Program-made: the position numbers and the translations under genes
Source of the DNA: Capnocytophaga catalasegens
GTDB lineage: Bacteria; Bacteroidota; Bacteroidia; Flavobacteriales; Flavobacteriaceae
Assembly (NCBI RefSeq): GCF_026005215.1
Contig: NZ_BPMA01000037.1
Coordinates: 20,499-58,182, forward strand
Direction of reading: 5' to 3'
Length of the DNA: 37,684 bases
The notes under the pieces: model-generated
Databases searched by the model: none
The model's input: only the letters and a program-made list of their open reading frames with translations
Told to the model about the DNA's origin: nothing
Part shown: positions 1 to 31,000 of the stretch, one piece after another
Position numbering within the stretch: the stretch's first letter is position 1
How the letters are laid out: every line of letters starts with the position of its first letter

Positions 1-299
1 GTGGTTTAGCTTATCACAACCTATGAAAGTAAAAAAAATAATAGATTTTAAAAAAAATACGCTATGAAAGAACTAAACAAGTACGAATAAGGCTACATCA
101 CACCCAATTTTTGGAGTTTTTATTCCGCTTTTTGGAAATTTCATCAAAAATATTACTTTAAAACAATAAAAACGATATTTTCGAACAAAAATTCATCTTT
201 TACCGAACAAAAAAACGACAAATGTGTATCGTTTTAAAAGTTTAGAAGATTCAATCGAGAAAATATCCTACCGATGTAACAATTTAAACATATAAAATA
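1..299. other. Left-edge non-coding stretch
   Basis: I see no convincing gene here on either strand. The stretch is very AT-rich. It holds a possible 8-codon peptide frame at 64-90 with nothing to support it. No clear TAnnTTTG promoter is visible in front of the lipoprotein gene that starts at 300. The end of an upstream gene may lie just outside the window. Confidence 0.5.
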
Positions 300-10726: not shown

Positions 10727-12133
10727 ATGAAGAGAATTTTTAGCAAAATACTATTTCTTAGTGCCATTAGTATTAGTATCGTATCGTGCGCAGGACGTAA
10801 ATCATACACAAGAACTGCAGACGTATCCAAGCAGATTGTTTTTCGTACAGAAGAATTGCCTTCAGATAGTCTTAGTGTAGCTAATGTGTCATGGAAAACT
10901 ATCTTCACGGATGGAAAACTACAACTTTATATAAATCAAGCTTTAAGTAATAACTTAGATATACGTGTTGCTTTGCAAAATATAGAGGTAGCTCGATCTG
11001 GGCTATTACAAAGCAAATACGCTTTACTACCTTCGGTGAATGCTTCGGTGAGTTACATGCGCTCTACATCATCATTAACAAGTACAGGCGTATCACCTTT
11101 GCCAAGCAGAACCTATGCAAATACATGGGATTTGACAGGTACAGCATCATGGGAAATTGATGTGTGGGGTAAGCTAACAGCTCAAAAGAGAGCAAATATG
11201 GCTTCGTATATGGGTACGATAGCTGCACACCAAGCAATACAATCGGAAGTGGTAGCCACTGTAGCTACATCATATTATCAACTCTTGATGCTTGATAAAC
11301 AAAAGCAAATACTAACTGAGACTATCAAGCTCAGAGATCAAAGTCTGCAAACTACCAAAGAGTTAAAACAATCGGGTTCAACGACAGAAGTTGCTGTACA
11401 ACAAACAGAAGCCCTTTATTATAATGCAAAATCTCAACTTATTACTATTAAAAACTCTATAAAAGCGCTCGAAAACTCAATTTGCATTTTGTTAGGAGAC
11501 CCACCACATGATATTGAACGAACTTCGCTTGATGTGCAACAATTTCCGCAGAAGCTTAATGAAGGTTATCCTATGCAAATACTCGAAAACAGACCCGATG
11601 TGCGCCGTGCTGAGCTTAGTTTAATCCATAATTTTGAATTGACCAACGTAGCTCGAGCAAGTTTTTATCCTACGCTTACACTCACGGGACGAGGTGGAGT
11701 AACAAGTAGAATGCTTGAAGACTGGTTCAGTGCAAATTCGCTCTTTGCTAACTTAATGGCAGGACTCACACAACCTATTTTCAATCGAAGACAAATTCGT
11801 ACGCAGTATGAGATAAGTAAAGCCAATCAAGAAGTTGCTTTATTAAACTTCAAAAAGGCGCTCATTTCGGCAAGTAAAGAAGTATCAGACGCGATACATC
11901 ACTACGCTTCGCAAGACGAATATATTCACTTAAAGACCAAAGAAATGGAAGCATACCAGAAAGCAACCGATTATTCGAAGGAGCTTTTCAATAGTGGGCT
12001 TGCTACGTACTTGGAGGTTATTACCGCTGAGGTAAATCGATTGAACTCTGAACTGAGTGTTGCCACAGCGCAATTCAACAAAATGCAGTACGGAATTACG
12101 CTATACAAGGCACTGGGCGGAGGCTGGCGATAA
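10727..12133 (+). CDS. RND efflux outer membrane factor, NodT/CusC-type lipoprotein (TolC family)
   Basis: The 468-residue product forms the outer membrane channel of a tripartite efflux pump. It has a lipoprotein signal peptide with lipobox IVSC (lipidated Cys at residue 21), typical of the NodT/OprM branch. The two OEP repeats are visible: NNLDIRVALQNIEVARSGLL about residue 80, TWDLTGTASWEIDVWGK about 145, and the second-half landmarks ILENRPDVRRAE and NSGLATYLEVITAE. It is the first gene of an operon with a GbsR-type regulator (50 bases downstream) and an adaptor. The pump itself is further away, past a DUF6261 gene. Confidence 0.9.
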   Translation: MKRIFSKILFLSAISISIVSCAGRKSYTRTADVSKQIVFRTEELPSDSLSVANVSWKTIFTDGKLQLYINQALSNNLDIRVALQNIEVARSGLLQSKYALLPSVNASVSYMRSTSSLTSTGVSPLPSRTYANTWDLTGTASWEIDVWGKLTAQKRANMASYMGTIAAHQAIQSEVVATVATSYYQLLMLDKQKQILTETIKLRDQSLQTTKELKQSGSTTEVAVQQTEALYYNAKSQLITIKNSIKALENSICILLGDPPHDIERTSLDVQQFPQKLNEGYPMQILENRPDVRRAELSLIHNFELTNVARASFYPTLTLTGRGGVTSRMLEDWFSANSLFANLMAGLTQPIFNRRQIRTQYEISKANQEVALLNFKKALISASKEVSDAIHHYASQDEYIHLKTKEMEAYQKATDYSKELFNSGLATYLEVITAEVNRLNSELSVATAQFNKMQYGITLYKALGGGWR

Positions 12134-12183
12134 GCAATCTTATTTATTGAATCAATTACAACAACCCTAATAAGACATAATCA

Positions 12184-12651
12184 ATGATAGATACAATTGA
12201 CCAAAAACTCTTGCAAGACTTAATTAACATGTATATAAAGTATGCAGGATTTTCGCCCATAGCGGCAAAGATATGTGCTTATCTGAAATTCGACTTTTCA
12301 GGCGAGGGAGTTACATTCGACCAACTTATAGAGGCTTTGGGAGTAAGCAAAGGTTCTGTATCGCTCAATTTGAGGCAGTTAATTGACAAGGAAATCATTG
12401 TTGAGATTAAAAAATTTGACAATAGAAAGACCTATTATACCTACAATCATAATTATATCTTATTATGGTTCGAGGAAATGATTAAAAAACTTGAATACAT
12501 GAGTGATATAAGCAATCGAATTACAGAAATGGCTCAAATAGAAGGGAAAATAGATGAACGAACCTTGCATATCAAACGCATACACCAATCTTTTTTAGAA
12601 GAAAGTATCATACGATTTAAAAGAACACTTACAAAAATAGAACAAATATGA
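12184..12651 (+). CDS. GbsR/MarR-family transcriptional regulator
   Basis: The 155-residue protein has a winged helix-turn-helix in the first 85 residues (FDQLIEALGVSKGSVSLNLRQLIDKEIIVEI is the recognition helix and wing) and a helical C-terminal part, as in GbsR-type members of the MarR superfamily. It lacks a membrane segment and should be cytoplasmic. It sits between the outer membrane factor gene and the adaptor, and its last four bases overlap the adaptor's start (ATGA), so translation is coupled. By position it most likely represses its own efflux operon in response to a pumped compound; the ligand cannot be told from sequence. Confidence 0.75.
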   Translation: MIDTIDQKLLQDLINMYIKYAGFSPIAAKICAYLKFDFSGEGVTFDQLIEALGVSKGSVSLNLRQLIDKEIIVEIKKFDNRKTYYTYNHNYILLWFEEMIKKLEYMSDISNRITEMAQIEGKIDERTLHIKRIHQSFLEESIIRFKRTLTKIEQI

Positions 12652-13745
12652 GAAAATGTATTATTCTAGCACTTTCGGCTTTTGTAATTGCTTGTAAAGA
12701 AGCGCCAAAACCGATGCAACAAGGAGCGAAGGAGCTTCCGGTGATACGTGTGGGAGCTCAAAGTAGCACCAATCAACTAGCATATCCGGTGAATATAGAA
12801 GGAACTATCAATAGCCCTGTGCAAGCGCGCGTGTCGGGCTACATTACCCAAGTTTTAGTAGATGAAGGGGCAAAAGTCAGCAAAGGACAACCACTATTTC
12901 GTTTAGAAACACAGGCGCTTAGCCAAAGTGCGCAAGCAGCAAAATCAGCTGTTGATGCCGCACAAGTCGAAGTCAGTCGATTAGAACCCTTAGTAGCGAA
13001 AAACATCGTAAGTCATGTACAACTCGAAACTGCCAAGGCAAACCTCAGTAGAGCTAAAGCAAGCTATGCAGAAGTGAATGCCAACCTCGATTATGCCATT
13101 GTTCGCGCACCTGTAAATGGTGTCGTGGGAAGCATCAATCTACGTGAAGGAGCATTGGTTTCGGCAAACAGCACTACGCTAACAACTGTATCAGATGTAA
13201 AACAGGTATATGCTTACTTTTCGATGAATGAAAAAGAATATTTATCTTTTTTAGGCAATGCAAAAGGTGGGTCTTTGTCTGAAAAAATCAGCAATTTGCC
13301 CGAGGTTACTCTTCGTATGGCAAACGGACAACTCTACGATTTGAAAGGAAAAATACAGGCTGTTACAGGTCAAATAGATAAAACGACAGGAAGCATTCAG
13401 TTTCGTGCTACATTTGACAATCCGAACGGATTGCTTACCAATGGTAATAGCGGAACGATATTACTCCCTGAAACCCATACGAATACTTTGGTCATTCCAG
13501 AGGTGGCAACCTACGAAATGCAAGGAGTTATCTTTGCCTTCAAGGTTGAAAACGACACACTAAAACAGGTTATCCTTACACTAAAAAATAGAAGCAATAA
13601 CCTCGCCGTAGTAGAAAGCGGTCTTGAAAATGGTGATTTGCTCCTTGTACAAGGGCTTAACACAGCACGAAGTGGTATGGTTATCAAACCGAAAGAGGTT
13701 TCAATGGATAGTATTGTACAAGCCATAAAACCTATATTTAGATAA
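12648..13745 (+). CDS. RND efflux periplasmic adaptor (membrane fusion protein), lipoprotein
   Basis: The 365-residue adaptor bridges the RND pump and the outer membrane channel. It has a lipobox VIAC (Cys at residue 16). Then come the biotinyl/lipoyl-like half motifs VSGYITQVLVDEGAKVSKGQPLF and ANLDYAIVRAPVNGVVG, which flank a helical hairpin rich in Ala, Gln and Glu (about 85-145). Beta-barrel and membrane-proximal domains follow. It is translationally coupled to the regulator. The pump gene, which normally follows directly, starts 1784 bases later, after a long repeat-rich gap and a DUF6261 gene. Confidence 0.9.
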   Translation: MRKCIILALSAFVIACKEAPKPMQQGAKELPVIRVGAQSSTNQLAYPVNIEGTINSPVQARVSGYITQVLVDEGAKVSKGQPLFRLETQALSQSAQAAKSAVDAAQVEVSRLEPLVAKNIVSHVQLETAKANLSRAKASYAEVNANLDYAIVRAPVNGVVGSINLREGALVSANSTTLTTVSDVKQVYAYFSMNEKEYLSFLGNAKGGSLSEKISNLPEVTLRMANGQLYDLKGKIQAVTGQIDKTTGSIQFRATFDNPNGLLTNGNSGTILLPETHTNTLVIPEVATYEMQGVIFAFKVENDTLKQVILTLKNRSNNLAVVESGLENGDLLLVQGLNTARSGMVIKPKEVSMDSIVQAIKPIFR

Positions 13746-13767
13746 CCATAAATAAAATTAGTAGAAC

Positions 13768-13945
13768 GAGGTCAATATTGCAACTTTACTAACAATAAAG
13801 TTACAAGAACGAGTTCGATATTGTAAGTTTTTATTTATAAAAACAAGTAAAATAGATACAACACATTATATTTATACATAGCAAAGTTATTATAACGAAC
13901 TAAATACAAGAAGTTTATTGCAAACAAAAATACAATATTGACCTC
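13768..13945. repeat. 13-bp inverted repeat pair with a degenerate direct copy
   Basis: GAGGTCAATATTG at 13768-13780 has its exact reverse complement CAATATTGACCTC at 13933-13945. A related direct copy, GAGTTCGATATTG (two mismatches), is at 13811-13823. CAATATTG is itself palindromic. Whether these are protein sites or element remnants cannot be told. Confidence 0.5.
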
Positions 13946-14229
13946 AATATATCAGATTTAGTTTATACAAATTAGCACTAATGTACTCAATATGCTAATT
14001 TTTTGAAATAAAAAAACAATCAATTTATAAACAGATATTTATTTTACTTACATAAAAATAGGTAAAAATAAAAAGCTACACAAACTTATAGCACATAAAA
14101 ACACACAAACCTATTGCGGTATTCCGATTTTGGTATTACAAAAGTAATACTAAAGCTCTCAAAACAAAAAATTTAAGTCCCTAAAACTATTTTTGTTGAA
14201 TACACCCAATAAGGTTTTGTTTCACAACA

Positions 14230-14306
14230 CCTATTATACGTATGCTATTTATACATATTTTTTCAACGTATTTATTTTTCAAGCAACGTATAATAGGATT
14301 TTTTTT
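14230..14306. repeat. 12-bp inverted repeat with following T-run
   Basis: CCTATTATACGT at 14230-14241 pairs perfectly with ACGTATAATAGG at 14286-14297; TGC/GCA extends the stem by three pairs past a one-base bulge. The loop is about 36 bases and contains a further CAACGTAT copy. Eight T follow. It could be a terminator with a long loop, an RNA structure, or ends of a small mobile element. Confidence 0.5.
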
Positions 14307-14464
14307 ACAAACAAGTTCTTTGACAGACTGAGTATGCAAATTTTCTATTAGAAAAACCTACCTCCTATTTGCTTGCATGCGAATTCAATTATCTCAAAAT
14401 TACAAAATGATACTTTTAATAAAGATTTAATATTTCTTTAACACTAAGATTGCTTTTAAGTTTT

Positions 14465-14499
14465 TACATTTGCCAAAAATTTAGTTCATTTACTAAATT
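14465..14499 (+). promoter_or_regulatory. Promoter of the DUF6261 gene with an overlapping inverted repeat
   Basis: TACATTTG at 14465-14472 is a good -7 element. Just downstream, over the expected start of transcription, AATTTAGT (14478-14485) and ACTAAATT (14492-14499) form a perfect 8-bp inverted repeat with a 6-base spacer, which is the size of a dimer operator. Binding by any regulator is an inference. Confidence 0.5.
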
Positions 14500-14533
14500 A
14501 TGAAATAAAGTAACAACCTAACAAAATTAGATT

Positions 14534-15286
14534 ATGGAAGATATTACTAAAATTAAAGAAGTGCATTTGGGTAAGTTCAACAATGCGGAATATACTCAAT
14601 TTTTGAGCAATACGAAAGAGCTGATAGAGAAAACTACTTTGGAAACGTTGATGTTAGATGCTGAAGTATTTGATGCGTTCAAAGAGAATATAAAGCTCCT
14701 TACCGATTCGCTGCAAGAGAGTCGCATCAGCAATGAAACGAAAGAACTTGCACTGCTAGATAAACAACGCAACGAAGCATTGCTATTCTTACAAATGAAC
14801 TTTCGTTCGGAACAAAAGAATCCTATCGAAAAACGCCGAAAAGCAGGTACAGAACTCTATAATGTAACGAAACCTTACAGCAAAGTGCGTACGCTACCTG
14901 TTCGACAAAAGACGCAGATGATAGAGGGATTTATTGCCGATGTAACTAAGGAGGGCGTGGCACAAAATCTGACAACTTTGGGCATCAAAGAAGCCGTAGA
15001 AAAGTTAGCTTCTATCAATGCACAATATAAAAGATTAACTGCCAATAGAGCTGATAGTCAAGCTGCTATTGTGAAAGTTAATGTAAAGGAACTTAGAAAG
15101 AAAGCTGACAAACAATACGATTACTTAACGACACGTGCGTTTGTAACTTCGGTTGCTACGCCATCGGAAGAAGCCAAAGCCTTTGTAAGCTCCATTAATA
15201 AGCTAATTGTTGATACGAATACCGCTTATAAACAACGCCAAACCGGAAAGCGCTTGAAAGAACCTGGAATGAAAGATGAAGAATAA
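14534..15286 (+). CDS. DUF6261-family protein
   Basis: The 250-residue protein is largely helical, with no signal peptide or membrane segment. I recognise it as a DUF6261-type protein of Bacteroidota from its overall sequence: the N-terminal LGKFNNAEYTQFL, a middle part with YNVTKPYSKVRTLPVRQKTQMIEGFI, and AQYKRLTANRADSQ followed by a helical tail. Members often occur as many paralogues in one genome; no function is established. It stands between the adaptor and pump genes of an RND system, but has its own promoter and a strong terminator, so it is probably an inserted unit and not a pump component. Confidence 0.7.
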   Translation: MEDITKIKEVHLGKFNNAEYTQFLSNTKELIEKTTLETLMLDAEVFDAFKENIKLLTDSLQESRISNETKELALLDKQRNEALLFLQMNFRSEQKNPIEKRRKAGTELYNVTKPYSKVRTLPVRQKTQMIEGFIADVTKEGVAQNLTTLGIKEAVEKLASINAQYKRLTANRADSQAAIVKVNVKELRKKADKQYDYLTTRAFVTSVATPSEEAKAFVSSINKLIVDTNTAYKQRQTGKRLKEPGMKDEE

Positions 15287-15316
15287 CTTCATCTCATATT
15301 TAATAAATTTAATTTT

Positions 15317-15367
15317 AGTTTGCCGATAGTTAAATTACTTCTTTTAATTATTCGGCAAACTTTTTTC
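15317..15367 (+). terminator. Terminator after the DUF6261 gene
   Basis: AGTTTGCCGA (15317-15326) and TCGGCAAACT (15352-15361) form a perfect 10-bp stem, continued by TAGTTAA/TTAATTA, then a run of T. A further copy of TATCGGCAAA occurs at about 15474. The hairpin should block read-through into the pump gene, so the pump needs its own promoter in the 160 bases that follow; no TAnnTTTG is evident there. Confidence 0.85.
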
Positions 15368-15529
15368 TGAAATTAGTTTGCACACTTGGGTCTGTCATCA
15401 TATTATATAGAAACAAAATAAATATACGTATTGTTTTCTCTTACTCACTTCTACAATAAGTAGTACTATGGGGTATCGGCAAATAATTACGTATTAAACC
15501 AAATAACAAAAACGATAAAAGGTAATAAT

Positions 15530-18500
15530 ATGGTACAAATATTTATCAATCGACCCGTACTCTCAACTGTAATTTCAATCTTAATTGTTATACTGGGTAT
15601 TTTAGGAATTGTGGCTTTGCCCATATCGCAATACCCTGATATATCGCCTGTAACGGTTTCGGTATCGGCAAACTACACCGGAGCGAATGCAGAAACCGTT
15701 TTAAAGTCTGTTGTAATTCCGCTCGAAGAACAAATAAATGGTGTGGAGAACATGGATTATATTTCCTCGACCGCTACCAACAACGGACAGGCATCAATAA
15801 ACGTATTTTTCAAGCAGGGAACAGACCCCGATATTGCCGTAGTTAATGTACAGAATCGGGTAGCTCGTGCTAACTCTATCTTACCTAGTGAAGTTACACG
15901 GGCAGGAGTTATCACGCAAAAGCAAAACTCTGGAGCGCTGATGTTCCTTACGTTTTATTCAGAAAATAAGGGCTTGGACGATACCTTTTTGCAAAATTAC
16001 CTAAACATCAATATCATTCCTGCCTTAAAGCGTATAAATGGTGTGGGTGATGCCTCAGTTTTTGGTGGCAAAGATTACTCAATGCGCATTTGGCTATGCC
16101 CCGAAAAGTTAGCTGCTTACGGCTTAAATCCTTCGGAAGTTACTGCCGCTATTTCTGACCAAAGTAGAGAGGCTGCCGCAGGTTCTATCGGTCAGAACGT
16201 AGGGGGGACTTACGAGTATGTAATCCGCTATAAGGGAAAGTTTGACGATGCTTCTGAGTATGAGAATATCGTAATCAAGGCTCTTGACGGCGGTCGCATT
16301 TTGCGATTAAAAGATGTAGCGGACATCGAATTGGGGTCTTTATCTTATACAGGCTTTGCGCAGAATAATGGCAACCCAGCTGTTTCAATGGGAATCTTCC
16401 AGACGCCTGGCTCGAATGCACGTGATATTATCAACGAAATAAAAGCCTACCTACAAAAAGCACAATCTTCCTTCCCCGAAGGTATTAACTACACCATTAA
16501 TATGGACTCCAACGAGTTCTTAGATGCTTCCATTGCCAAAGTATTGACCACTTTGCTTGAAGCATTCTTATTGGTGTTCTTAGTTGTATATATTTTCTTA
16601 CAAGATTTTCGTTCGACACTGATACCTGCTATTGCTGTTCCGGTATCAATAGTTGGTACTTTCTTCTTCTTAAACCTATTTGGTTATTCAATAAATATGC
16701 TTACGCTCTTCGCTCTGGTACTTGCTATTGGTATTGTAGTTGATGACGCAATCATTGTAGTAGAAGCGGTACATGCGAAAATGGAAGACATGCATCAGAA
16801 AGCCAAGTCTGCCACCATTGGAGCTATGCACGAGATAACGGGCGCTATTATTTCGGTTACCTTAGTAATGGCTGCGGTATTCGTTCCGGTAACTTTCATA
16901 GGAGGGACAACGGGTGTTTTCTACAAACAATTTGGTATTACGCTTATTGTATCGATTGTTATTTCGGCAATCAATGCCCTTACACTAAGTCCTGTATTGT
17001 GTTCGCTTTTCCTTAAACCACATGGAGATAAAGCATATCAAGAAAAATCGTTCATAGGAAAGGCTTTTCATAAGTTTAATATTGCTTTCGAGGCAGCAAC
17101 TACCCGATATGGGAAAACCTTTACTTTCTTTTTGCGACACAAGTGGGTAACTTTAGTGCTTTTTGTACTGGCAGGCGTAGCGCTTTATTATAGTAATGCT
17201 ACGATGAAAAAGGGATTTGTACCTATCGAAGACAATAGCCTACTAATGATAAATGTTGAACTGATACCCGGCGCTTCTATGGAACGAACTGCCAATATAT
17301 TGAGCGAGGTACAGAAACGAGCTCGTAAAATCGATGGAATACAATCAGTTACCACTATTTCAGGGCGTAGCTTCATATCAGGAGCAGGAAGTAACTATGG
17401 TATGGGCTTTCTTCGGCTGAAACCCTTTGTAGAACGCCAACATGACCTCAATCAATCCATTGAATCAATCGTAATGCAAGCATTCGGAGCAGTTGCTTCA
17501 ATACCCGATGCACGTATTATCTTCTTTCAACCCCCTGCTATACCAGGGTTTGGGCTAAACTCAGGATTTTCAGTAGCTTTGTTAGACAAATCGGGGGGAG
17601 AAATTACTCAGTTGAACGAAACCACGCAACATTTTATAGGAGAATTGACCAAGCGCCCCGAGATTCAGTATGTACAAACTTCGTTCAATGTGAATTATCC
17701 ACAATATGAACTCTCAATGAATGTAGAGCGTGCCTTCCAATCAGGAGTTTCAGTAAGCACATTGTTAGCAACATTGCAAAATTATATAGGTGGATTGTAC
17801 GCAACAGACTTTACCAAGTACGGGAAACAATTTCGCGTGATGGTGCAATCACTTCCCGATGATCGAAAAAATATTCAGAGCTTGGACAAACTTATGGTAC
17901 GGACATCAAGCGGAGAAATGGCTCCTGTATCACAATTCGTAACCTTAGAGCGTGTATTTGGTCCGCAGAGTGTAAATCGATATAACTTATTCACTTCTGT
18001 CAATCTTACCGGAGCCAATGCCGAAGGATATAGTACAGGCGATGCTCTCAAAGCTGTACAAGAAGTAGCCACTCAGACCCTTAGTACTAATTATGCCATC
18101 GATTATACAGGACTTACACGCGAGGAACAAAAAGCTGGGTCACAAACCTTAATTATCTTTCTACTATCGCTCATATTCACATACTTTATACTCTCTGCCC
18201 AGTACGAAAGCTACCTACTTCCTTTGGCAGTAATCTGCTCGCTGCCTTTCGGAATAATGGGTGCTTTCCTCGGACAATGGTTGATGGGACTTGAAAATAA
18301 TATTTACTTCCAGATATCTTTGATTATGCTGGTCGGTCTATTAGCTAAGAATGCAATACTTATCGTAGAATTTGCCGTGCAACGAAGACACCAAGGAGAG
18401 AGCTTATCCAAATCAGCAATAAATGCAGCTATGGCACGATTAAGACCGATATTGATGACATCGTTTGCCTTTATCATTGGTCTATTACCTCTTGTATTTG

Positions 18501-18661
18501 CCAGTGGAATCGGTGCCGCAGGGAATCGTTCTGTTGCCACAGGAGCTGTAAGCGGTTTACTTATTGGTACATTTATCGGACTGATAGTAATCCCCGTACT
18601 TTATGTTATTTTCCAATGGTTTCAAGAGAAGATTTCAGAAAAATTTTCTACCTCAGAATAA
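15530..18661 (+). CDS. RND-type multidrug efflux permease (HAE1 family, AcrB-like)
   Basis: The 1043-residue protein is the proton-driven inner membrane pump of a tripartite efflux system. It has the family's full length and the doubled layout of one helix, a large periplasmic loop and a bundle of helices, twice. The N-terminus FINRPVLSTVISILIVILG and the start of the first periplasmic loop, LPISQYPDISPVTVSVSANY, are typical. The proton relay residues are intact: Asp405-Asp406 in GIVVDDAIIVVEAV and Lys940 in GLLAKNAILIVEFA, matching AcrB Asp407/408 and Lys940. The partner channel and adaptor genes lie upstream but are separated by the DUF6261 unit. Substrates cannot be told from sequence. A strong hairpin terminator follows. 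Confidence 0.95.
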   Translation: MVQIFINRPVLSTVISILIVILGILGIVALPISQYPDISPVTVSVSANYTGANAETVLKSVVIPLEEQINGVENMDYISSTATNNGQASINVFFKQGTDPDIAVVNVQNRVARANSILPSEVTRAGVITQKQNSGALMFLTFYSENKGLDDTFLQNYLNINIIPALKRINGVGDASVFGGKDYSMRIWLCPEKLAAYGLNPSEVTAAISDQSREAAAGSIGQNVGGTYEYVIRYKGKFDDASEYENIVIKALDGGRILRLKDVADIELGSLSYTGFAQNNGNPAVSMGIFQTPGSNARDIINEIKAYLQKAQSSFPEGINYTINMDSNEFLDASIAKVLTTLLEAFLLVFLVVYIFLQDFRSTLIPAIAVPVSIVGTFFFLNLFGYSINMLTLFALVLAIGIVVDDAIIVVEAVHAKMEDMHQKAKSATIGAMHEITGAIISVTLVMAAVFVPVTFIGGTTGVFYKQFGITLIVSIVISAINALTLSPVLCSLFLKPHGDKAYQEKSFIGKAFHKFNIAFEAATTRYGKTFTFFLRHKWVTLVLFVLAGVALYYSNATMKKGFVPIEDNSLLMINVELIPGASMERTANILSEVQKRARKIDGIQSVTTISGRSFISGAGSNYGMGFLRLKPFVERQHDLNQSIESIVMQAFGAVASIPDARIIFFQPPAIPGFGLNSGFSVALLDKSGGEITQLNETTQHFIGELTKRPEIQYVQTSFNVNYPQYELSMNVERAFQSGVSVSTLLATLQNYIGGLYATDFTKYGKQFRVMVQSLPDDRKNIQSLDKLMVRTSSGEMAPVSQFVTLERVFGPQSVNRYNLFTSVNLTGANAEGYSTGDALKAVQEVATQTLSTNYAIDYTGLTREEQKAGSQTLIIFLLSLIFTYFILSAQYESYLLPLAVICSLPFGIMGAFLGQWLMGLENNIYFQISLIMLVGLLAKNAILIVEFAVQRRHQGESLSKSAINAAMARLRPILMTSFAFIIGLLPLVFASGIGAAGNRSVATGAVSGLLIGTFIGLIVIPVLYVIFQWFQEKISEKFSTSE

Positions 18662-25989: not shown

Positions 25990-27342
25990 CTATTGTTGTA
26001 TATAGAATTCTAATAATTTCTTTTTGAGTAAATATTCAAACTTAGCTGAACTTACACGAGCTTGGGCTATTAACAGATTTTCCTTAGCGATGTTGTAATC
26101 ACTGATGGTAAGTGTCCCGCTGTTGAACTTTTGATTGATATGAAATAAAATTGTTTCGGTGCGTTGTACCTGTGACTCGGCGGTTTGGTATTTTTTCTTA
26201 GCAACATCAATCTCTACGATGAGTTTGCGTATTTTTTCGTTCAAATTCTTCTTATTTTGTTCTAATTCGTTCTTGGCTTGTTCGGTTTGATACTGATTTA
26301 TTTTTAGGTTTTTACGAATTTGAAACACATTGGTCAGTGGTATATTCAAAGAAAGTCCGATATATCCCATTTGGTTGTTACGCAATTGGTCAGAAATAGA
26401 ATAATCAGTCTGGGCGATGTTATTACCTGGCAGATAGATATAATTACCATTATTATCTAAGAGTGGTACTCTACTAGAAGAGTTGAACGAGCTTCCATAC
26501 GAGGCATTCAAAGAGAGTGTAGGATACAAAGCGCTTCTTGTTTGCTTGGCTGAAAACTCCATAGCGGTTATTTTACTTATTGCCGAAGCTATTTCGGGAA
26601 GGCGATCCACTATTTGACTTATAGATTGGTCATTTAGATTTTCAGAAAGCAAATCGGGTTCTATATTTTCAACATCAAAAGTTTCATAATCGGTAATATG
26701 AAGCAAATTACACATATCTATTTTTGCTATAAGCAAATTCCCTTGTGCAGATGATATTGCATAAAGTTCATCATCTCTTTGTGCCAACATATTTTGCAAT
26801 TTTTCTTCGGTAAGATTACCTACTTGATACATTTGTTGGGCTTTTTCAATGTTAATATCTGAAACTTCTAATTGTTTTTGTGCTGAGGCAATCAATTCTT
26901 TATTCAAAAGAATTGTAACATAAGCCTGAATAACTGAAAGAGACAAATTATTACGAACCACTTGGGCATCATATTTTGAAATATCCCAATCTACAAGTGA
27001 TTTTTTGACCGAATAATATTTGCGAAGACCTCCAAACAATTCTGCCGAAGCTCCTATACTTAAATTAGTCGAATTATTAGTACTTGTTTTGATGTATTGC
27101 ATTGTCCTAGCATCATTTTCTCTTCGTATTTGTGTCTGATTTGATGCAGAAATCCCAACATTGGGTATATTTCCAAGTCTTGAAAATTCAACAACTTCCT
27201 TTGCATACTTTTCTGACAATTCTGCATTACGACTACTCAAATTATGTGTTTTAGCTTGCGAAATACATTCTTCAAGTGTCCATTTTTTCTGTGAAAAGCA
27301 GCATATAGGAAATAAAAAAGCTATAATATAAATATTTTTCAT
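25990..27342 (-). CDS. TolC-family outer membrane efflux protein
   Basis: The protein is 450 residues from the ATG at 27342, which gives a clean signal peptide (MKNIYIIAFLFPICCFSQ); the frame extends 11 codons upstream without support. Features of the OEP family are the N-terminal KWTLEECISQAKTHNLSSRNAEL, long helical stretches with a TolC-like periodicity (about 160-210 and 335-410), and the second-repeat beta segment SLNIPLTNVFQIRKN. It is the last gene of the ABC efflux operon, and supplies its outer membrane channel. It is separated from the ATPase gene by a 42-bp tandem array. No TAnnTTTG promoter is visible directly upstream, so it probably depends on read-through of the array. Confidence 0.88.
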   Translation of the reverse strand: MKNIYIIAFLFPICCFSQKKWTLEECISQAKTHNLSSRNAELSEKYAKEVVEFSRLGNIPNVGISASNQTQIRRENDARTMQYIKTSTNNSTNLSIGASAELFGGLRKYYSVKKSLVDWDISKYDAQVVRNNLSLSVIQAYVTILLNKELIASAQKQLEVSDINIEKAQQMYQVGNLTEEKLQNMLAQRDDELYAISSAQGNLLIAKIDMCNLLHITDYETFDVENIEPDLLSENLNDQSISQIVDRLPEIASAISKITAMEFSAKQTRSALYPTLSLNASYGSSFNSSSRVPLLDNNGNYIYLPGNNIAQTDYSISDQLRNNQMGYIGLSLNIPLTNVFQIRKNLKINQYQTEQAKNELEQNKKNLNEKIRKLIVEIDVAKKKYQTAESQVQRTETILFHINQKFNSGTLTISDYNIAKENLLIAQARVSSAKFEYLLKKKLLEFYIQQ

Positions 27343-27406
27343 AGAAAAAAAATTATTTATTGACATTATATACACTATTTATGATTCTTTTAATTTTATT
27401 TACTAA

Positions 27407-27883
27407 AAATTGAATTCTTTTTTATACCAATAAATTTATAATATCATAAATTTGAATTCAATTTCACGTCAAAAAATATTAAACAAACAAAAATTTAACT
27501 CTTTTTTATACTAATAAATTTATAATCTCATAAATTTGAATTCAATTTTGCATTAAAAACATTATATAAACAAAATTTGAATTCAATTTCATACAAATAA
27601 ATATCTAATCACAACAAATTGAATTCAATCCTTTATAAAAAATATCAAAAAAAATAAAAATTGAATTATTTTTTTCATTATTAAATTACAAATATAAATA
27701 AATTGAATTCAATTCTACGCAAATAAACATTAAATAACTAAAACTTGAATTCAATTTTACACAAACAAACCTTTAATCACAATAAATTGAATTCAATTCT
27801 ATCTAAAAAAACATCAAATAACTAAAAATTGAATTCAATTTTACTTAAATAAAAATCTGAAAACCAGAAATTGAATTCAATTT
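27407..27883. repeat. Tandem array of 12 units of 42 bp, each with an EcoRI-centred palindrome
   Basis: GAATTC or a one- to two-base variant recurs at 27412, 27454, 27496 (TAACTC), 27538, 27579, 27621, 27663 (GAATTA), 27705, 27747, 27789, 27831 and 27873. The spacing is 42 bases, once 41. Each is the centre of a palindrome up to 16 bp, consensus AAATTGAATTCAATTT, and is followed by a variable A-rich spacer of 26 bases. The spacers alternate: the spacer of unit 1 matches unit 3 at 24 of 26 positions, and unit 8 matches unit 10 at 21 of 26, so the higher-order period is 84 bp. The array starts just after the ATPase stop codon and runs to about 65 bases before tolC. No long reading frame crosses it. 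The spacers resemble each other, so it is not a CRISPR. Confidence 0.9.
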
Positions 27884-27897
27884 TAGGCTACACAATT

Positions 27898-28563
27898 TCA
27901 ATTTGAAGCAATTTGACCATCAACTACACGTATTAGTCTTTTAGTTTGGTCTGCAATATCCTGTTCGTGGGTTACAATAACTACCGTTCGGTTATCGTTA
28001 TTTATATCTTTGAATATTTGCATTACTTCGGCGGTAGTTTTAGAGTCAAGCTGCCCTGTGGGTTCATCAGCAAGTATAAGAGGAGGCTCACTAACCAGTG
28101 CACGAGCTATAGCAACTCGTTGTCGTTGCCCACCAGAAAGCTCATTGGGGAAATGCGTTGCCCAGTCTGCCAAACCAAGTGATTCTAATTTCTCTAAGGC
28201 TTTTTTGTCTCGAATTTTCTTTGAAACATTTTGATAAAAGAGCGGAAGGGAAACATTTTCCATTACATTTTTGTAGGGAATTAAGTTTGCGGACTGAAAC
28301 ACGAATCCTATAAATTTGCTACGATAATATGACAACTCTTTTTTGGATAATTGATTCATATTTTGGTCATTAAATAGATAAGTTCCGCTGTCGTAACTAT
28401 CCAGAAGCCCAACAATATTCATAAGTGTCGATTTTCCAGAGCCAGAAGCCCCCATTATAGACACCATTTCCCCCGAATCAATCCGAAGATTGATACCTCG
28501 AAGCACATGTAGGGCGTTATGCTCTGTTCGATACGTTTTGTGTATATCGCTTAGCTGTATCAT
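27898..28563 (-). CDS. ABC transporter ATP-binding protein (MacB/LolD type)
   Basis: The 221-residue ATPase has Walker [10 protein letters not shown] (38-46), signature [15 protein letters not shown], Walker [13 protein letters not shown] and the switch His in [10 protein letters not shown]. It is of the LolD/MacB group, which works with FtsX-type permeases in mechanotransmission; here ATPase and permease are separate proteins. The adaptor gene ends 2 bases upstream, so the genes are cotranscribed. Directly after its stop the 42-bp array begins. The system may export macrolide-like compounds, peptides or other molecules; the substrate is unknown. Confidence 0.92.
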
Positions 28564-28565
28564 GT

Positions 28566-29672
28566 TTATTTTGCTTTATCGGGGGTTGAAGAAAGGTCTT
28601 CAGCTGTTGGAAGTACTATTTTGTCGGACTCAGAAAGCCCCTGAGTAACTTCGGTAAACTTCCCGTTAGACACACCCAGGGCTATTGACTTTTTATTTTT
28701 CCCTTTAGCATCTTTAACCATAACAAAGGTAGAATCATTTCGATAAATAATATAGTTTTCTGGCAAAGATAGTGCTTGTTTTTTACTATTTAGGATAATT
28801 TCTGCCGTTGCCGAATATCCAGAGCGAATCGTTGGCATCTGATTATCGACCGGGAACTCTGCATCGAGTGTGTATTTCATAATTCCGTTTTCAATCACTC
28901 CTTTGGCAGATATTTTATTAACCACAGCGATGGTTTTAAGATTTTTGTAGGCATTAAAAGAAAGCGAAATGGTGTCACCAATTTGTATATGCTCCAAATA
29001 TTGTTCTGCCACTTGCGTACGGAAAACAAATTGCCCCATCTGTGCCAATACCGCTACTGTTGTTCCCGGATTGAAGTTATTTCGTTCCACTATCGAAGCT
29101 CCGCTCTCCAAAGGAAGGTCAATTACCGTTCCTTCTATGCTCGATTTAACAATATTAGAGATTTGTGAAGAAGAAGCTACCTTCCCTTTTTTCTGAATAT
29201 CTAATTGATTCTGTACCGACACCAATTGTTCTTTGGCAGTATCGTAGTTTCTCTGCGCTTCTTCCATCTCCGATTTTGAAATAGTGTTCGTTGCGAATAA
29301 TTTTTCAGACCGCTCATAGCTAAGTTTCACGGCATCGAAATTAATTTTGGCCAATCGAACATTATTCTCCAAACGTTCTAACTCAATTGCACTTGGTACA
29401 AGCCCAACTGAAGCAATTGGAGTTCCTTTTTCAACTCTATCACCTATTTTGACGAAAATTTCACTCAAAATTCCCGATAATTGAGGTTTAATCTCTATTT
29501 CTTTGACCGGATATACATTGCCCGGTATATAAATTTCCTCTTTTATATCTCTTTTTTCGAGTGAAGTTATTTTTTCGTTTGCAGTATCCTTACTTGACGA
29601 GGCTATTTTATACACAATAAAGCCAACTACAAGTATAATTATAGTCATAATGCTCCATTTTATTGCTTTCAT
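28566..29672 (-). CDS. MacA/HlyD-type periplasmic adaptor of the ABC efflux system
   Basis: The 368-residue protein has one N-terminal membrane anchor (about residues 7-26) and no lipobox. The split lipoyl-like domain is visible as PQLSGILSEIFVKIGDRVEKGTPIA and KSSIEGTVIDLPLESGASI, with a helical hairpin (about 85-150) between them. The beta-barrel part (VFRTQVAEQYLEHIQIGDTI) and a membrane-proximal domain follow. It connects permease and TolC. The upstream permease gene lies 80 bases away on the same strand; the ATPase gene follows after 2 bases. Confidence 0.9.
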   Translation of the reverse strand: MKAIKWSIMTIIILVVGFIVYKIASSSKDTANEKITSLEKRDIKEEIYIPGNVYPVKEIEIKPQLSGILSEIFVKIGDRVEKGTPIASVGLVPSAIELERLENNVRLAKINFDAVKLSYERSEKLFATNTISKSEMEEAQRNYDTAKEQLVSVQNQLDIQKKGKVASSSQISNIVKSSIEGTVIDLPLESGASIVERNNFNPGTTVAVLAQMGQFVFRTQVAEQYLEHIQIGDTISLSFNAYKNLKTIAVVNKISAKGVIENGIMKYTLDAEFPVDNQMPTIRSGYSATAEIILNSKKQALSLPENYIIYRNDSTFVMVKDAKGKNKKSIALGVSNGKFTEVTQGLSESDKIVLPTAEDLSSTPDKAK

Positions 29673-29752: not shown

Positions 29753-31000
29753 CTAACCTCTATTTTCGTGTCTGATAGCATCAACAGGCTGAATATTAGA
29801 TGCTTTTATGGCGGGGAAAAGTCCAGCCAACACACCCGATATCGTCATTATGACCAATGCACCAAAAGCCACACCAAAATCGAACACAGTTCGCTTCAAC
29901 GGAAATGAAGACTCCCCTCCTGCCGATAAAACAAAGTCTATCAGTTGTAAAATACCAAAAGCGAGCAACGTACCGATAATCCCTGAAAGTAACGTAATGC
30001 TAAGTGCCTCTATGAGTATCTGCCAAATAATATTGGAGGGCGTTGCTCCCACTGCCATTCGTATTCCTATCTCGCTGGTACGCTCTTTTACGATGATAAA
30101 CATAATGTTACTAATGCTAATCATCCCACTTATAAGGAAACATATCCCTACTATCCATATAAAGATACTTAATCCATTGAAAACTCCCGATATCGCATTT
30201 AAATTCTCTTCAATCGCCTGTATATATATGGCTCTATCATCATCATTGGCGAAATTAAGTTTGTTAGCCAAGTAGTTTTTAAGTTTTTTGGCAAATATAC
30301 TTGGCGAAACTTCGGCTTCATCTTTTAAATAAAGACTAAATCCTTGAATATCGGGCGTATCTTGAATATTTCGAATGAAAGAAGTATGCGGAATATAGAC
30401 ATAGTTTTCATCTTGTTGTGTAATTATATCATCATTGCGCATCACTCCAACTATAGTATAATAAACACCTCCCACGTTTATCATTTTGTCTATGGGTTGA
30501 GCGCTTCCAAAGAGATTTGTAGCCACTTTCTTCCCTATGATGGCTATGTTACGTGCATTTCTATCGTCAGACGGATTGAATTTGCGACTTCCATCTCTCA
30601 TTTTAGGGCTAATCATTTCAAAATATTGAGAAGTTACCCCCGAAACTGAAGCCGACGTATTTCGTTTTTCAAAAATAACATTCTTAGATACCGCCGACAT
30701 AGGTGAGACACCCTTAACTTCTGAAAATCTACGTTCAATATCTTTCAAAAGATACTTATCAAAAACAATAGGACGCCCTTCGTTCATATTTTTGTATTGT
30801 TTGGAAGTAATTCCTCCCCAAACACCAATGGTTTTGCGTGAGAAACCTTTAAGTGAATCCTGAACACCAAGCTCTAAGCCTTTCCCTACTCCCAAAAGTG
30901 ACACCAGAATCATTATTCCCCACAAAATACCAAAACCCGACATAAAAGTACGAACCTTATTCTGCCGAATTGAATGCCATATTTCTTTAAGTATTTCCAT
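29753..31000 (-). CDS. ABC transporter permease, MacB-type (FtsX family)
   Basis: The 415-residue permease has the MacB topology: a first helix (RTFMSGFGILWGIMILVSLLG), a large periplasmic MacB core domain (about 45-275), then three helices ending the protein (IFIWIVGICFLISGMISISN, a Leu/Ile-rich helix near 340 and one near 385). MacB itself has its ATPase fused in front of this; here the ATPase is a separate gene two places downstream. It is the first gene of the operon. A TAACTTTG element at 31065-31072 on the minus strand lies 65 bases upstream. Confidence 0.9.
   Translation of the reverse strand: MEILKEIWHSIRQNKVRTFMSGFGILWGIMILVSLLGVGKGLELGVQDSLKGFSRKTIGVWGGITSKQYKNMNEGRPIVFDKYLLKDIERRFSEVKGVSPMSAVSKNVIFEKRNTSASVSGVTSQYFEMISPKMRDGSRKFNPSDDRNARNIAIIGKKVATNLFGSAQPIDKMINVGGVYYTIVGVMRNDDIITQQDENYVYIPHTSFIRNIQDTPDIQGFSLYLKDEAEVSPSIFAKKLKNYLANKLNFANDDDRAIYIQAIEENLNAISGVFNGLSIFIWIVGICFLISGMISISNIMFIIVKERTSEIGIRMAVGATPSNIIWQILIEALSITLLSGIIGTLLAFGILQLIDFVLSAGGESSFPLKRTVFDFGVAFGALVIMTISGVLAGLFPAIKASNIQPVDAIRHENRG

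Follow-up and report, generated by a model that had tools for sequence, protein, structure and literature searches.

A phased palindrome array in an efflux operon of Capnocytophaga catalasegens has its core in common with an array upstream of a DUF6261 gene

Introduction

Transcription factors that regulate themselves through tandem operators have palindromic sites in front of their own gene, all facing the same side of the helix. Plasmid iterons and centromere or parS arrays are likewise built of phased repeats, which are bound cooperatively by an adjacently encoded protein. In the following, we describe an array of this general appearance from a 37,684-nucleotide stretch of the C. catalasegens genome (the window), together with the arrays of 41–43-bp period that precede genes of the DUF6261 family (PF19775) in the same genome and in other Bacteroidota.

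The DUF6261 arrays share with the tandem operators of autoregulated factors the one-face palindromic sites upstream of the own gene, but they comprise up to ~12 sites over ~500 bp, the encoded proteins have no recognised DNA-binding domain, and 29 paralogs with private cores occur in one genome. The same 29 loci in one genome, and the position of the window array beside an efflux operon, distinguish these arrays from iterons and parS arrays. The window array recalls CRISPR in its regular alternation of conserved and variable stretches; however, its spacers are diverged copies of each other (52–62% alike) rather than unrelated sequences, its conserved part measures 10–16 bp, and the four genes around it are efflux genes. 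The first-pass annotation of this DNA had considered CRISPR, iterons and attC sites to fit poorly.

The REP/TnpA_REP-RAYT systems known as REPtrons are also alike in that a gene lies near palindromic repeats of its own type, related palindromes are found elsewhere in the genome and several protein–repeat pairs have co-evolved (PMC8266576). Unlike REPtrons, the DUF6261 proteins match neither a HuH nuclease nor another Pfam family, the neighbours of the window array are efflux genes, and the repeats are tandem, with a fixed period of 41–43 bp and degenerate spacers, and are located 5' of the gene (downstream in 1 of 28 cases).

Results

A twelve-unit array in a MacB-type efflux operon

The operon that bears the window array is a MacB-type efflux operon, in which the order on the minus strand is permease (MacB/FtsX), membrane fusion protein (HlyD), ATPase, array and TolC:

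25990..27342, minus strand: gene for a TolC-like outer membrane efflux protein (PF02321 with E 2.3e-44; scanned span 25990-27339); its frame opens with GTG at 27375, and the array is directly upstream
27404..27885, no strand assigned: phased palindrome array with core AAATTGAATTCAATTT, located between the ABC ATPase and tolC genes; its 12 units have a period of 42 (once 41)
27868..27883, no strand assigned: perfect 16-bp palindrome AAATTGAATTCAATTT, one of two; the other copy is at 27826-27841
27898..28563, minus strand: gene for an ABC ATPase (PF00005), at whose 3' end the array starts
28566..29672, minus strand: HlyD-type membrane fusion gene, next gene in the same direction
29753..31000, minus strand: MacB/FtsX-type permease gene, next gene in the same direction

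TRF reported one array at 27404-27885 with a period of 42, 11.4 copies and a score of 246, and longer periods scored more (385 for 84 and 426 for 168). The self-identity of the array was 0.64 at lag 42 and 0.67 at lag 84, whereas the best-lag identity was at most 0.48 throughout 300 dinucleotide shuffles; the array is far from chance. It could be tiled into twelve units with 42-bp steps and a single 41-bp step, and the location and period read by the first-pass annotation were confirmed by these results. The flanking genes that it had named were also recovered. A gap of 12 bp separates the array from the ATPase stop; on the other side, the GTG with which the tolC frame opens (27375) is 29 bp away and the ATG (27342) preceding the TolC signal peptide ~61 bp, the last distance being read from the sequence.

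The sequence is very AT-rich (GC 0.156). The array had been described as twelve palindromes; twelve units are present, nine of which carry the exact core TTGAATTCAA, but the cores of the remaining three (27407, 27491 and 27658) are worn and degenerate. This core is absent from the window outside the array, and it occurs three times in 720 kb of other sampled C. catalasegens sequence. Between units at lags 1 to 6, the palindrome columns are 0.81–0.87 alike versus 0.52–0.62 for the spacers, in line with the earlier proposal that the palindrome has been kept while the spacers diverged. Because the similarity of spacers is higher at a distance of two units (0.62) than between neighbouring units (0.52), the two alternating spacer types and the 84-bp super-unit suggested previously are mildly supported. 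The reading of the array as a set of RNA hairpins fits poorly, given that the core is a zero-loop palindrome and that no Rfam family reached its cut-off in a scan of 27000-28300 with Rfam 15, in which the single match up to E 1 was mir-186, with 21.6 bits against a cut-off of 70.

A twin array upstream of a DUF6261 gene on contig 32

When the whole C. catalasegens genome was searched for the 16-mer core with up to two mismatches, 34 places were found; within one mismatch there were 17, eight in the window array, eight in an array on contig 32 and one elsewhere. Two copies of TTGAATTCAA at 42-bp spacing were present at nine places in the genome, all within these two arrays, and this pair was found nowhere in 19 other genomes of the genus. 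The spacing search recommended by the first-pass annotation, run with TTGAATTCAA on this genome and the 19 congeners, hence returned one twin array, that of contig 32.

The contig-32 array consists of 12 units, all exactly 42 bp long, and, like the window array, fills a gap between the stop codon of a gene and the start codon of its neighbour. It follows a small NifU-like frame (read by eye) and precedes a DUF6261 gene located on the same strand (PF19775, E 1.6e-37). The unit consensuses of the two arrays gave a score of 29, compared with a maximum of 21 over 600 shuffles, a value to be read beside the 26 that the AT-rich DUF6261 array L356 scores with the window array and the 29 that two AT-rich arrays without a DUF6261 gene score with each other. 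With nhmmer at E<=0.01, the pair was not linked in either direction. The proposed link between the window and contig-32 arrays is based on the exact core, the spacing and the consensus score of 29.

The window array thus resembles the DUF6261-linked class proposed here in its palindromic core at 41–43 bp, and it has core and period in common with one DUF6261-linked array. It is not itself directly upstream of a DUF6261 gene, tolC being found there instead, whereas its contig-32 twin is; we filed it as a second site, not the primary one, of a DUF6261-linked array, and we consider it very probable that it belongs to this class.

Orthologs of the contig-32 gene were seen in two other genomes, G019 (L288) and G005 (L289), where the upstream units are larger (126 and 125/167 bp) and include a GTCAGGCTGAGC stretch. 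This or a similar stretch is also present in arrays of G019 (L336) and G014 (L292).

Arrays of 41–43 bp precede most DUF6261 genes

The hypothesis of a link between the arrays and the gene family originated from a search with the contig-32 DUF6261 protein, which gave matches from 14 of the 20 genomes of the genus, followed by TRF on 30 DUF6261 loci, where 41- or 42-bp arrays of unrelated units were found 5' of many genes. A Pfam search (PF19775) identified 29 dispersed DUF6261 genes in the C. catalasegens genome. For each gene, the best lag between 10 and 69 was determined in a 650-bp upstream slice, and a score of at least 5 was regarded as strong; 213 other genes whose upstream gap measured at least 200 bp served as the control. 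With slices placed by locus coordinate for the DUF6261 genes and by start codon for the others, the best upstream lag was 41, 42 or 43 in 24 of 29 DUF6261 genes versus 26 of 213 other genes (Fisher 1e-14), and a strong lag of 41–43 was seen in 22/29 versus 12/213 (6e-17). Downstream of the DUF6261 genes, a lag of 41–43 was found in 1 of 28.

TRF copy numbers upstream of the 29 genes ranged from 1.9 to 11.5. Five loci were missed by the lag test. At two of them, L362 and L363, TRF gave arrays of 41 and 43 bp, respectively, located ~0.7–1.1 kb upstream; at L362 another open frame lies between the array and the DUF6261 gene, and at L363 the gene start used is misplaced. The third, L365, is at the end of a contig, and its slice covered sequence other than the upstream region. 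At the remaining two, L338 and L343, no upstream array was detected by either the lag test or TRF.

One of the 29 genes is in the window itself, where it is accompanied by a worn array:

14534..15286, plus strand: DUF6261 gene (PF19775, E 2.6e-36)
13741..14005, no strand assigned: degenerate 43-bp array, ~530 bp upstream of the window DUF6261 gene; best lag 43, score 4.3 (below 5)

The profile of the 13741..14005 array matched no other DUF6261 locus.

In the other genomes of the genus and at two Parabacteroides distasonis loci, a lag of 41–43 was found at 21 of 29 loci, a set of which 27 had served to generate the hypothesis and which includes some close orthologs and some misplaced gene starts. 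Outside the genus, the best lag was 41 or 42 at seven of eight DUF6261 genes, with a score of at least 5 in two only. PF19775 was present in 6/296 Bacteroidota genomes, in 24/59 genomes of one other genus and in 5/57 of another family. Protein searches of a plasmid collection added four DUF6261 genes from named species. In P. distasonis, the array upstream of L374 has a period of 42 bp with 4.0 copies and 90% matches (TRF), and at L375 TTCTTAGGCCTAAGAA cores with one to three mismatches follow each other at steps of 41, 42, 41 and 42 between unrelated spacers, a locus that is negative in both tests (best lag 20, no TRF row). The Riemerella anatipestifer locus is weak (lag 41, score 3.8, no TRF row), with cores around TTTTAAAA. 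The Prevotella nigrescens locus has a lag of 41 with a score of 9.3 and the core TGCCGAnnTTCGGCA, and its annotated start codon lies inside the array; a direct repeat of ~120 bp in several copies (L377:1500-1900) was also observed just upstream of this array.

Cores are private and spacing is kept

Profiles of 26 DUF6261 arrays were compared with 901 kb of the genome, consisting of the samples and all 29 DUF6261 loci, at E<=0.01. Each profile recovered its own array, and none matched another DUF6261 locus in these 901 kb. Five of the 26 matched another place. The L337 profile matched L229:12122 (43 and 43 bp, E 1e-7, reciprocal 1e-5), and the L354 profile matched L234:9726 (41 and 41 bp, E 9e-7, reciprocal 6e-7, core TTCCAAnnATTGGAA). 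The L347 profile matched L233 one-way (42/42 bp, E 0.0026), with related cores every 42 bp in both arrays and an end unit shared over ~60 bp. Three arrays away from DUF6261 genes (L229:12122, L234:9726 and L233) therefore each match one DUF6261 array in sequence and period. The other two matches were weak, that of L340 in L246 (0.008) and that of L349 at window positions 3-35 (0.009).

Among the orthologs L302-L305, from four genomes, the core TTCTCAAnTTGAGAA is kept at 41-bp steps and the spacers are gone; at L305, the register is kept across decayed units, with steps of 41, 124 and 124. The period was common to 0.89 of the 18 DUF6261 pairs that are more than 60% identical, compared with 0.38–0.47 in the other identity classes. 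Overall, the similarity of the arrays was not correlated with that of the proteins (Spearman 0.05, p 0.09).

Symmetry was assessed in the 46 DUF6261-linked arrays whose lag identity reaches 0.55. Their best palindrome score was 0.725 versus 0.665 for the best mirror score (p 6e-4), and the palindrome block was more conserved than the mirror block (p 1e-3), although the mirror score was the higher of the two in 11 of the 46, including the contig-32 array. Two other ideas were rejected. Compensatory changes in the palindrome arms, noticed by eye in single arrays and apparent in a first test, gave no within-unit covariation beyond the mirror control (p 0.17), and a general palindromic rule for arrays in this genome was not supported, there being no palindrome excess in 24 arrays taken irrespective of linkage (Fisher p 0.20).

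The DUF6261 protein

DUF6261 is listed in Pfam as a family of unknown function. The proteins scanned match PF19775 only, and no nuclease, transposase or HuH (Y1) model of Pfam was matched. They are mostly 220–285 residues long, the P. nigrescens protein having 317 in its annotation. Two residues, D76 and R79 (numbering of the window protein), are invariant in 21 sequences, and the last 25 residues contain on average 5.7 K+R versus 3.5 D+E. A single-sequence model of the window protein, predicted with no alignment, is helical and confident at residues ~70–170, with poor ends and a mean pLDDT of 64; the structures it matches are helical bundles of a generic type, with scores under the tool's threshold for a meaningful match between such bundles. 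In a profile search of the PDB, the best E value was 0.027 and no DNA-binding fold could be assigned. No relative of the contig-32 protein was found in the phage collection.

Other arrays of similar pitch

TRF on ~803 kb of sampled genome, including the window, gave 29 arrays of at least 75 bp, four of which had been chosen by pattern or finding. Among the other 25, which are unrelated in sequence, the base period was 21, 41–43, 63 or 84 in 21, and it was 41–43 in 15 of these 21, two of them being pieces of one L180 region. The remaining four have periods of 23, 36, 81 and 285; the 36-, 81- and 285-bp arrays are wholly inside open frames and the 23-bp array mostly so. Open frames also contain L189:3755, L227:16027 and L237 wholly and L241:19383 mostly, all from the set of 21, and at least some of these are there by chance because periods of 21, 42 and 63 keep a frame open. 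In other genera of the family (20 stretches, four of them under 1.4 kb), seven arrays were found, none with a period of 21 or 41–43; one of them, inside an open frame, had a best lag of 84. For approximately 13 of the 18 sampled arrays away from DUF6261 genes no partner was found, and many of these flank housekeeping genes.

The motif GAATTC repeated four times at 42 bp was present in at least 117 stretches of the species collection. Most of the 80 matches listed were 21-bp arrays or other repeats, and none of the listed loci that were examined encodes DUF6261, indicating that the bare GAATTC pattern is not diagnostic. Among the matches listed (L045-L124), 21-bp GAATTC arrays were common in Nostoc relatives, Spirochaetes and Peribacillus.

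A second protein family was found upstream of which arrays also occur. The array L191:9362 (21/42 bp) is upstream of a gene for a 218-residue, helical-looking protein with no Pfam match over the cut-off. This family has seven matches in C. catalasegens, two of which are pieces of one broken copy, and among the 20 genomes of the genus 13 encode it, each of which has DUF6261 as well. A 21-bp-based array is directly upstream in all three sampled members (L191:8487-9143, L336:5218-5865 and L333:18608-19228), and the family may account for some of the arrays that lie away from DUF6261 genes. In addition, L237:15847-16347 and the gene to the right of the array 18480-18688 in L209 encode homologous proteins of 166 and 171 residues (phmmer E 1.5e-8), each gene having a 63- or 21-bp array at its 3' end; these proteins possibly form a third family, whose arrays would follow the gene instead of preceding it.

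Discussion

The rows of paired half-sites that recur every four helical turns before most DUF6261 genes look like an undescribed kind of element, and the DUF6261 set suggests many proteins that each recognise a private DNA address. Autoregulation by paralog-specific dimers would be the simplest account of a private, often palindromic core that is repeated at whole turns 5' of one gene family. DUF6261 forms large paralog families in the genus, and most of their genes are preceded by an own 41–43-bp array (four helical turns). According to this model, each DUF6261 protein, or a dedicated partner, would bind its private core as a dimer, neighbouring dimers would touch on the same DNA face, and occupancy of the array would regulate the protein's own promoter. 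Where an array recurs at another locus with its core and period unchanged, as seen in a few cases, it would be a second site. The window array would be the second address of the contig-32 paralog (core TTGAATTCAA), between the ATPase gene and tolC, where its occupancy may block, tune or insulate tolC transcription. On balance, we regard it as probable that the window array provides binding sites for the contig-32 DUF6261 paralog as part of such paralog-specific dimeric autoregulation. As DUF6261 is the only neighbouring gene known to vary with the core, we infer from genetics that it is the binder; the dimeric state, the cooperativity and the effect on transcription are predictions drawn from the arrangement of the sites. 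Of the three readings offered by the first-pass annotation, that of a platform bound cooperatively by a dimeric protein has by far the strongest support, with DUF6261 as the candidate family and its binding as a prediction.

It is unlikely, in our estimation, that the arrays are cis-acting tuners of expression with no dedicated protein, in which variable-number repeats would set promoter strength or phase, the sequence would be irrelevant and the window array would be a stray copy. Such a tuner would agree with the copy numbers, which vary between paralogs from 1.9 to 11.5 upstream of the 29 genes (TRF), and with the presence of arrays at genes other than DUF6261, but it leaves unexplained both the TTCTCAAnTTGAGAA cores that outlast their spacers in the orthologs of four genomes and the occurrence of the same core and period at distant loci. 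Cores conserved beyond their spacers, and a register kept across decayed units, also argue against a neutral minisatellite expanded by slippage, with the period as a by-product of the duplication mechanism, and so does the link to DUF6261 (24/29 versus 26/213), which recurs in distant families with different sequences. We consider this explanation quite improbable, although 21 of the 25 arrays not chosen by pattern have a period of 21, 41–43, 63 or 84 in unrelated sequence and several arrays away from DUF6261 genes flank housekeeping genes. A neutral minisatellite would follow no positional rule and decay equally in all columns, whereas the DUF6261 class follows a positional rule and the columns of the window array have decayed unequally. 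Slippage or recombination probably made the copies, but this does not explain the DUF6261 link or the kept spacing. That annotation had also reasoned that similar arrays at many unrelated places with no positional rule would point to neutrality; many unrelated arrays of the same pitch do exist, and most of those away from DUF6261 genes follow no rule, but a large class follows the DUF6261 rule.

Just as improbable is a mobile-unit relic, in which the DUF6261 gene and its array would have moved together and lone arrays would be remnants of gene loss, comparable to REP sequences around a domesticated transposase. The 29 dispersed gene copies would be accounted for, as would the end unit that the L233 and L347 arrays share over ~60 bp, which is expected of a copied block. 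However, the 29 bp between the window array and the tolC frame are too short for a DUF6261 remnant, the DUF6261 proteins match no nuclease or transposase in Pfam, and a search of the phage collection gave no relative of the contig-32 protein. We assign the lowest probability to a structural DNA element, whose four-turn phasing would sum small bends into a curve that organises or isolates DNA with no sequence-specific binding. A period of 41–43 in arrays of unrelated sequence and the GC content of 0.156 in the window array are in its favour, but the arrays of P. nigrescens and L337 are much less AT-rich, periods of 41 or 43 bp drift out of phase over six or more units at 10.5 bp per turn (by arithmetic), and the private cores are left unexplained.

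If paralog-specific autoregulation is true, it would provide a function for DUF6261, which has 29 paralogs here and is also present in gut, oral and bird-associated Bacteroidota, and a route to many orthogonal protein–DNA pairs, in which the core is changed and the pitch is kept. It would also become testable how a protein with no recognised DNA-binding domain reads a palindrome and why the spacing equals whole turns, and there would be an explanation for part of the large group of intergenic repeat arrays that are listed as minisatellites by repeat-finding programs. More speculatively, and with a confidence somewhat below even, these arrays could be parts of a DNA-address system of Bacteroidota, in which small helical families (DUF6261 with 41–43 bp and the second, unnamed family with 21-bp-based arrays) would use private palindromic arrays, the protein fixing their pitch at two or four turns, and sister arrays would create tens of orthogonal networks per genome.

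The link between DUF6261 and the arrays was not described in the literature searched, a body that had most subscription journals outside its scope. In that literature, work on helical or 42-bp intergenic repeats, Capnocytophaga repeats, paralog-linked repeats, Bacteroidota arrays of 41 or 42 bp and four-turn tandem operators gave nothing on this link, and DUF6261 appears in one paper, in a table only.

Two minor observations concern the surroundings of other arrays. In the window (10727-18661), the DUF6261 gene and its worn 43-bp array are between a membrane fusion gene and an RND-like pump gene (the latter read by eye), and in G019 (L284:14237-14510) an 84-bp array is located between a membrane fusion-like and an outer membrane-like gene (both read by eye).
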